Below are positions 9,575 to 11,316 of a stretch of 23,234 bases of DNA, piece after piece; within the stretch, counting starts at the first letter, position 1, and every line of letters begins with the position of its first letter. The translations under genes and the position numbers were made by a program. Origin of the DNA: a virus; the IMG/VR virus record IMGVR_UViG_3300043395_000308, positions 1-23,234 of that record. The stretch is one strand, 5' to 3'. Under the pieces are notes generated by a model that did not search any database, was not told the origin of the DNA, and saw nothing but the letters and a program-made list of their open reading frames with translations.

Positions 9575-9745
9575 ATGGCACTCGCTTATGATCCGAAGGC
9601 ATCTAGCGTTGTTCCCAACTATGTTGTGAAGACGACTGGTGATCCCTTCTTTGTTACCGCTTACCCTGTCCCCTATGCCAAGGCAGGCTCCCTTGCTCAG
9701 TGCAAGAAGCTTAGCCCAAAGGGTGCAGAACAGGTGGCAACCTAA
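9575..9745 (+). CDS. 56-aa orphan protein downstream of psbA
   Basis: ATG at 9575, four bases after the psbA stop, to TAA at 9743-9745. The product begins MALAYDPKASSVVPNYVV and ends with a short basic tail with one Cys (SLAQCKKLSPKGAEQVAT). No membrane helix, signal or enzyme motif. The YVVKTTGDPFFVTAYPVPYAK part could form a small beta unit. The reading frame, spacing and codon choice match its neighbours, so it is probably translated with psbA, but I do not recognise the family. A role tied to D1 would be speculation based only on adjacency. Confidence 0.6.
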   Translation: MALAYDPKASSVVPNYVVKTTGDPFFVTAYPVPYAKAGSLAQCKKLSPKGAEQVAT

Positions 9746-9871
9746 TCCGTAAAGACGGACGGGGAGGTTTGAGCCCTCCCTTAGGTATTGGCTTTAGGCC
9801 TTCTACGGAAGATACCCTTTAGCCGCGCGGCTGTCAGAGCCTAAAAAATCTGACGAAAAAATTGATCATCT
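9746..9871 (+). other. non-coding region dense in hairpins, possible pseudoknotted RNA or 3' UTR element
   Basis: The longest gap in the window holds several potential helices: TCCGT/ACGGA (9746-9750 with 9755-9759); GGGAGG/CCTCCC (9762-9767 with 9775-9780); GGTAT/ATACC (9784-9788 with 9812-9816) enclosing CTTC-TACG-GAAG (9800-9811), a C(UNCG)G tetraloop; the 12-bp palindrome AGCCGCGCGGCT (9821-9832); and GTCAGA/TCTGAC (9833-9838 with 9849-9854). The loop of the last hairpin, GCCTAAA (9839-9845), is an exact complement of TTTAGGC (9793-9799), so an H-type pseudoknot can form with helices abutting. No good T run follows. It may be a psbA mRNA 3' element, a processing site, or part of the mobile unit of the adjacent homing endonuclease. 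No match to a known riboswitch, ribozyme or group I core was recognised. Confidence 0.45.
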
Positions 9872-10240
9872 ATGCTAGCAAAAGTCCCTGAGTTAGCCTG
9901 GGCTGCTGGCTTTTTTGAGGGTGAAGGACACATCAATGTCTCACCTAATACAAATAGCAAGCGGTACGGGTACAACTCTATGTGTACTCAGATCACAATG
10001 ACCCAAAAGGGTACAGAGACAGAGCCTCCTGATGTTCTTGTTAAGTTTGCCGACCTGTTTCCAGGTGGTAAGATTTACAGAGAGAAAGGAAGAGCCATGT
10101 GGAGATACACCATTTCTAAGAAGTGGTATGTCAAAGCAGCGTTGAAGTCAATGCTCCCCTGGCTTGGTCAGCGTAGATCTGAGAAGGCACACGAATGCAT
10201 TCGGGCAATTCTTAATTCCCCGTACAAAGTTAAACCCTAA
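9872..10240 (+). CDS. LAGLIDADG-type homing endonuclease, free-standing
   Basis: 122 aa from ATG 9872. One LAGLIDADG helix near the N-terminus reads AAGFFEGEG within LAWAAGFFEGEGHINV, with the catalytic acid at the second Glu; a single motif implies a homodimer. The remainder has the usual beta-strand features, including KIYREKGRAMWRYTISKK and a C-terminal helix pair. Such enzymes cut specific DNA and copy their own gene into the site. There is no intron in psbA or the capsid gene, so it is free-standing, between the psbA cassette and the capsid. It ends 2 bases before the capsid ATG, so the capsid start may depend on its translation. A psbA-linked nuclease in cyanophage S-PM2 (F-CphI, HNH type) is a parallel of different family. 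Confidence 0.88.
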   Translation: MLAKVPELAWAAGFFEGEGHINVSPNTNSKRYGYNSMCTQITMTQKGTETEPPDVLVKFADLFPGGKIYREKGRAMWRYTISKKWYVKAALKSMLPWLGQRRSEKAHECIRAILNSPYKVKP

Positions 10241-10242
10241 TC

Positions 10243-11316
10243 ATGACTACCTGGAGCCCAATCCCCGGAACGGCACCGAACACTACTGCCACTTCCGTTG
10301 GTTCTATTAACAAGCACCCTGGCCTTGGCCTGACTCAAGGCGGTGCAGATTATGACGCTAAACATGCGACCTACCTTAAATTGTTCTCTGGCGAACTCTT
10401 TAAGGCATATGAGTCCGCATGTATTGCTAAAGGCACCGTTCAAAACCGCACCCTGAAGAACGGCAAAGCTCTGCAGTTCATCTTCACTGGTCGTATGGGC
10501 GCTTCCTACCACCAGCCTGGCACCCCTATCCTCGGTAGTGGTGATCCCCCGGTGGCAGAGAAGACCATCGTGATGGACGACCTGCTGGTTTCCAGCGCCT
10601 TCGTCTATGACCTCGATGAGACCCTTGCTCACTACTCCCTGCGTGGCGAGATCGCCAAGAAGATTGGCTACGCCCTCGCAGAAGCTTATGACAAAAAGAT
10701 ATTCCGTGTGATCGCAAAGGCTGCACGTGAAGCTCATCCGATCGGTGCTGCTGCTGGTACTACCCCCACGACTCCTGCAGTTCCTGCTGAGCCTGGTGGT
10801 TCCATCATCAAGCTTGGTGCTGGTAATGCCCTGAGCGCACAGCATCTGGTTGATGCCTTCTTTGAAGCTGCTTCCATCCTTGATGAGAAGAACCTTCCTA
10901 AGCAAGGTCGTACTGCCATCCTGACTCCTCGTCAGTACTACGCCCTGATCTCTCAGGTCGATACCAATATCCTGAACCGTGACTTCGGTAACAACCAGGG
11001 TAACCTGAACAGCGGCGAAGGTCTCTATGAGATCGCTGGTATCAGCATCCGTCGTTCCAACAACCTCCCCTTCCAGGCTGGCAACATTGCCCGTGTGGAC
11101 GGTGAGAACAACGACTACTCTGGTGACTTCACCAACCACGCTGGTCTCATCTATCAGAAGGATGCTGCTGGTGTTGTTGAAGCTATCGGTCCTCAAGTTC
11201 AGACCACCTCTGGTGACGTGTCTGTCCTGTATCAGGGCGACGTGATCGTTGGTCGTCTCGCTATGGGCGCTGGCACCCTGAACCCTGCTGCTGCTATTGA
11301 GCTGCAGTCTGCCTGA
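10243..11316 (+). CDS. major capsid protein, T7 gp10-type
   Basis: HK97-fold shell protein. 357 aa, close to T7 gp10A (345). Matching features are the N-terminal arm, the LKLFSGELFKAYESACIAKG segment typical of T7-like capsids, MDDLLVSSAFVYDLDE, a Thr/Pro/Ala-rich insertion around residues 180-195, the TPRQYYALISQ helix, and the C-terminal DVSVLYQGDVIVGRLAMG strand region. ATG at 10243, 2 bases after the homing-endonuclease stop, with no visible Shine-Dalgarno site, which is surprising for the most abundant phage protein. Two stops in a row (TGA TAG) end the frame; the next gene is in the same frame 15 bases on. Confidence 0.95.
   Translation: MTTWSPIPGTAPNTTATSVGSINKHPGLGLTQGGADYDAKHATYLKLFSGELFKAYESACIAKGTVQNRTLKNGKALQFIFTGRMGASYHQPGTPILGSGDPPVAEKTIVMDDLLVSSAFVYDLDETLAHYSLRGEIAKKIGYALAEAYDKKIFRVIAKAAREAHPIGAAAGTTPTTPAVPAEPGGSIIKLGAGNALSAQHLVDAFFEAASILDEKNLPKQGRTAILTPRQYYALISQVDTNILNRDFGNNQGNLNSGEGLYEIAGISIRRSNNLPFQAGNIARVDGENNDYSGDFTNHAGLIYQKDAAGVVEAIGPQVQTTSGDVSVLYQGDVIVGRLAMGAGTLNPAAAIELQSA

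Follow-up and report, generated by a model that had tools for sequence, protein, structure and literature searches.

In T7-like cyanopodoviruses, a conserved structured RNA forms part of the 5' leader of their major capsid gene. Its existence and its position before the capsid gene are borne out by comparison with relatives, and the family is apparently new; covariation and the lack of a match in Rfam agree with one of the options offered by a sequence-only reading of this DNA, a new phage RNA. We infer with moderate confidence that it acts in cis on the capsid message, with tRNA-type processing in the cyanophages. The window, i.e., the whole stretch of DNA analyzed, is a virus record of 23,234 bases from a T7-like cyanopodovirus, and all the features located below are on its plus strand. 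The genes run in the order scaffold, hli, a lytic-transglycosylase-like gene, psbA, a 56-residue ORF (stop codon TAA at 9743-9745), the element, a LAGLIDADG homing endonuclease (9872-10240; Pfam LAGLIDADG_1, 8e-8) and the major capsid gene to which the leader belongs (10243-11316; Pfam Gp10A-like, 1e-75).

The folding energy of the window is by itself not significant, since the comparison with shuffled sequences proposed as a check gave z = -1.75, with 8 of 200 shuffles folding as well. For this reason, relatives were sought through the capsid protein, in IMG/VR and among phage isolates, a route also made necessary because a direct nucleotide search of phage records with the window spacer gave no match. 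The spacers 5' of the capsid gene in these relatives share an obvious structure. It is nested and made of a P1/P2 helix of 8 positions whose middle often holds two U-U mismatches, a bulged C opposite an AYAM stretch and a P3 hairpin with a YNMG tetraloop, followed by a linker and usually by a P4 hairpin with a GARAGA loop. In the window, the core was placed at 9788-9824 by covariation and by a covariance model (R1), with P1/P2 pairing 9790-9798 to 9816-9824 around a tandem U-U mismatch, the bulged C at C9799, P3 at 9800-9803/9808-9811 with a UACG loop, and AUAC at 9812-9815. All the helices listed in the sequence-only reading do occur in the window where it put them, and part of its hairpin assignment survives: C(TACG)G (9803-9808) is the conserved P3, and the 12-base perfect palindrome AGCCGCGCGGCT (9821-9832) is a variant of a recurrent palindromic hairpin for which relatives have other perfect palindromes with self-complementary centres. 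The helices that it drew across one another do not survive. The GTCAGA/TCTGAC hairpin (9833-9854) occupies the place of the relatives' GARAGA-loop hairpin as a diverged P4, with GCCTAAAAAA as its loop, and the window copy as a whole looks diverged. A consensus fold computed for the whole leader showed no structure other than the core and P4. The GARAGA loop can pair with UCUC close to the start codon, but with only modest enrichment.

The R1 model, built from six relatives, found the element in most of the loci searched, with scores reaching 87 bits. Its match in the window covers 9788-9854 and scores 28.1 bits; E is 1.8e-4 for a search of 483 kb and 8.4e-6 for one of the window's own record. 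A scan of the window, nine relatives and the isolates against Rfam, another of the checks proposed, returned no family for the element at the gathering score; the low-threshold matches to the window were weak and chance-like and were discarded. The covariation check came out in favor of a nested fold. An alignment of 60 members (49 distinct rows) showed compensatory changes at 14 of 17 pairs, and 94.1% of its cells pair. Cells with double changes numbered 154, against 43 in shuffles and 5 to 15 when partners were slid (0 at +3). Because related sequences can inflate such counts, we also mapped the changes by parsimony on a tree of the capsid protein and obtained 93 pair-preserving double changes, against 0 to 5 in the slid controls. 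It should be noted that the alignment was fitted to the structure and so favors it somewhat; the margin is far larger than would be expected from this. The G-U pairs in the core alignment, the YNMG tetraloops retained despite sequence change and the junction with tRNAs described below argue that the core acts as RNA and not as DNA.

We used a pattern search blind to the capsid gene and pooled its results with the other loci, which gave 100 distinct copies. The capsid gene lies downstream in 94 of the 94 that can be tested, the remaining 6 being on contigs that end within 233 bases. In whole isolate genomes, wherever R1 found any site there was a single strong one, just 5' of the capsid gene; the sites in P60 and S-CBP42 are weaker, and those in P-SSP7, P-SSP2 and NATL1A-7 were missed by the genome scan, the element being present by pattern. 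The core hairpin was seen in the capsid leaders of Syn5 (L090), P60 (L095), S-CBP42 (L099) and SS120-1 (L098), the last three with extra structured sequence separating the core from the T-arm-like or alternative hairpin. The leader lies 66 to 200 nt from the capsid gene except in the window (456) and in L001 (708), the two cases in which a nuclease gene stands in between. L007, the nearest relative, lacks a nuclease at this place and has an intact element at 134 nt. These distances and the nuclease-free relative assign the element to the capsid gene and make the nuclease an insertion, which in the window has pushed the leader away from its gene. Only two bases separate the nuclease stop codon from the capsid start codon (window 10238-10245), so that in this phage capsid translation may be coupled to that of the nuclease. 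In L001 (2705-3412), a relative (71%) of the window's nuclease sits in the same place before the capsid gene, and that capsid gene is interrupted near its N-terminus by a group I intron (RF00028, 81 bits), unlike the unsplit one in the window; this arrangement resembles a free-standing nuclease beside an intron that it could mobilize.

The 5' neighbor of the core is interchangeable among a full tRNA, a mini tRNA-like fold and another hairpin. Full tRNAs are of the Gly type in NATL1A-7 and three metagenomic loci, Trp in L050, L080 and L163, and Cys-like in L056; those of L050, L056, L080 and L093 score above the Rfam or ARAGORN threshold. The first base of the element directly follows the last one of the tRNA model (n+1 after n): in NATL1A-7, the tRNA-Gly occupies 1309-1379 and the core begins at 1380, and the same direct junction is found in L050, L080 and L056, the remaining tRNA/core coordinates being 1879-1949/1950, 174-244/245 and 2842-2912/2913. 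Only L213 has one extra base (n+2). The window contains no tRNA above either threshold. Its mini tRNA-like module (9740-9787), recognized by its fold and by a geometry shared with relatives, has an acceptor-like stem (9740-9745/9781-9786) whose 5' strand contains the stop codon of the 56-residue ORF, a small arm (9746-9759), a T-arm-like hairpin (9762-9780) with the T-loop UUUGAGC (9768-9774), and a discriminator-like base, A9787, separated from the end of the T-loop by 12 paired bases as in tRNA geometry. The "two more hairpins" noticed at first sight are therefore present, as parts of a tRNA-like three-way junction that reaches 5' to 9740. In a tRNA with its discriminator base, 13 nt follow the T-loop; from the end of the T-loop to the start of the core there are 13 nt (38 cases) or 14 nt (11 cases) in all 49 relatives, tRNAs included. 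The acceptor-like stem pairs over 5 to 7 bp in 44 of 44, with the sequence changing on both sides (shuffles reach 5 in about 42%). The module thus presents a tRNA-like acceptor/T-arm substrate, with a stack of about 12 bp, a T-loop and a discriminator before the junction. Several mini forms have the stop codon of the upstream gene within the acceptor strand. The third kind of neighbor, found in 50 of the 100 distinct copies (e.g., L012, L054 and S-CBP1, L088), is a hairpin that is not tRNA-like and has a conserved 15-nt loop, CACCUCRGNGUMGGA. This loop is identical to E. coli 23S rRNA 2494-2512 at 13 to 16 of 19 positions, a likeness on which we do not rely because shuffles reach 14 in about 4% of cases. 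We also considered an attP remnant, i.e., the tRNA 3' end used by an integrase; the mini-form T-loops often have G in place of the universal U55 and their acceptor covaries, which is unlike a copy of a host tRNA. An intrinsic terminator (a G+C-rich hairpin followed by a U run) was rejected too, as no terminator-like site was called in 9740-9871.

The exact junction with real tRNAs lacking CCA indicates, for those phages at least, a capsid mRNA that begins at the first base of the element after tRNA maturation. A late polycistronic RNA would run from the upstream gene into the capsid gene, and in the cyanophages the tRNA, or the module resembling one, that adjoins the core on its 5' side would be recognized by host tRNA-maturation enzymes. 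The most likely enzyme would be RNase Z, cutting after the discriminator base and leaving a capsid mRNA that starts with 5'-UUGG or UUGA, with P1 two nucleotides from the end. Cyanobacteria have RNase Z, RNase P and RNase E (PMC10989914), and RNase E senses, and is stimulated by, a 5' monophosphate (PMC3997798). A 5'-terminal P1 would then shield the monophosphorylated end from RNase E, so that the capsid mRNA would be stabilized or metered. In phages that encode a real tRNA without CCA, we take the cut to be near certain, and in the mini forms, from the geometry, likely; P1 as a protector of the end is plausible, and its effect on capsid output would follow from that. Against this model, the non-tRNA-like hairpin replaces the module in about half of the distinct copies from cyanophages, and a cut by RNase P on the 5' side would often delete the stop codon of the upstream gene. 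It also leaves both sets of perfect palindromes (see below) unaccounted for.

The core hairpin extends beyond the cyanophages. Of 161 loci from T7-like phages of SAR11, roseobacters and rhizobia, 153 have the bulged C, P3 with a YNMG loop and AYAM together within 220 bases 5' of the capsid gene, a combination present in 7 of 4,922 control windows. The 153 are not independent and amount to a few dozen distinct sequences (3 SAR11, 20 roseobacter and 5 rhizobial) because loci within each group are closely related. In these phages, P3 shows compensated variation and the pair beside the bulged C is G-C or A-U; a complete P1 helix is not apparent in the roseobacter group. The core hairpin is kept in all three groups although none of them showed a tRNA-like module, which makes the role of the core independent of tRNA processing; the central hairpin probably also has a function of its own, and protein binding is the main rival reading. 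The hairpin would then be a translational operator bound by a phage protein (most simply capsid or scaffold) or by a universal host protein, and binding would repress or time capsid translation, with the 5' module merely insulating the hairpin. The single strong copy per genome beside the capsid gene fits such a role, as does the fact that the best-conserved part, across phages of bacteria of different phyla, is a small hairpin with its bulged C, AYAM and YNMG loop. However, an operator leaves unexplained why real tRNAs abut it exactly and why the mini forms keep tRNA geometry. We regard it as a serious alternative, if clearly the less probable one.

Perfect palindromes appear in two places in these leaders. 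In the segment before the capsid ATG, one of at least 10 nt is present in 75 of 87 distinct sequences (about 9% expected); they measure 10 to 18 nt, have many sequences and ten different self-complementary centres, i.e., the form is kept and the sequence is not. In the linker, one of at least 8 nt is present in 29 of 41 (about 9% expected). A hairpin needs no self-complementary loop, so the palindromes suggest pairing between two molecules or a role at the DNA level. One scheme, which we find doubtful and put forward tentatively, is that the leader is freed by tRNA-type processing and then homodimerizes through its palindromes, which would couple the handling of capsid mRNA to its own concentration. 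It is also conceivable, though improbable, that a separate small RNA is cut from the leader, with its 5' end at the tRNA junction and its 3' end past the GARAGA hairpin or the palindrome. Such an RNA would act in trans, and the palindromic loops might join it into multimers. The element is compact and strongly folded, with a defined 5' boundary, and the self-complementary centres in two places would suit multimers, but no 3' processing signal was seen and the fixed distance of 66 to 200 nt to the capsid start codon in nuclease-free relatives suggests a role in cis. Still less probable is that palindromes and hairpins are DNA elements (a binding site, or a replication or packaging signal): the pre-ATG palindromes are perfect, variable in sequence and without a spare loop, as a dyad-symmetric DNA site might be, yet such a site would be expected to keep its sequence, and the RNA-level features of the core argue against it.

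What we consider scarcely credible is the original proposal, in which an H-type pseudoknot goes with the psbA mRNA or with the mobile nuclease: its helices can be drawn in the window, but they are absent from the other 65 distinct relatives, and the element occurs without an adjacent psbA and without the nuclease. The 7-base loop pairing, TTTAGGC (9793-9799) with GCCTAAA (9839-9845), is found in 1 of 66 distinct elements, i.e., the window, as is the second crossing, GGTAT (9784-9788) with ATACC (9812-9816), and both compete with the conserved P1/P2. Syn5 and P60 carry the element with no psbA between the scaffold and capsid genes, contrary to a psbA mRNA stability element, and an RNA of the mobile unit is contradicted by relatives that have the element and no nuclease, such as L007, whose capsid protein is 97% identical.

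Neither Rfam 15 nor the titles and abstracts of the open-access papers searched describe a conserved RNA structure at the capsid gene of these phages. The direct tRNA 3' junction recalls the theta ribozymes, HDV-like RNAs located in phage genomes immediately 3' of tRNA genes, mostly without encoded CCA, whose cleavage would free the tRNA end (PMC10879173). Unlike them, the element lies before the capsid gene wherever this can be tested and often has no full tRNA. An HDV-like ribozyme was rejected as the fold is nested, with no double pseudoknot: on the 5' side, P1/P2 and P3 are separated by a single nucleotide, which leaves no room for the P2 pseudoknot strand. In tRNA-punctuated transcripts and tRNA-like mRNA processing signals, the fold lies exactly at an mRNA boundary. 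The element is similar, but here the fold is joined to another conserved RNA structure, and a mini form or a different hairpin can take the place of the tRNA. Stabilizers of the ompA type are 5'-terminal stem-loops with the helix within a few nucleotides of the mRNA 5' end; P1 would likewise be near the proposed 5' end and may affect stability, but the conserved internal loop and tetraloop sequence of the core would be superfluous in a plain stabilizer. The leader of T7 gene 10 occupies the same place directly before the capsid gene and has the annotated phi10 promoter where the core would be. The core motif is absent from T7 and from a Pseudomonas, a Vibrio and a Desulfovibrio phage; promoter-like sequences were recognized by eye in the Pseudomonas and Vibrio phages.

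The T7-like phages that infect cyanobacteria and SAR11 rank among the sea's most abundant viruses, and a fixed capsid leader suggests that they share a means of making or controlling capsid mRNA. If the processing model is true, host tRNA enzymes would cut out the message for the most abundant protein of the phage, at a place where T7 has a promoter, and the junction between tRNA and element predicts the 5' end of the capsid mRNA to the single nucleotide. Another RNA, the Glutamine-II riboswitch or Downstream-peptide RNA (RF01704; PMC2864571), is found in many relatives between psbA and the capsid gene, upstream of the element, and is separate from it, being detected by Rfam as the element is not. 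We located copies in L007 (1696-1760) and in the isolates L088, L089, L091, L093, L098, L102, L104 and L106, in several cases ahead of a small peptide gene.
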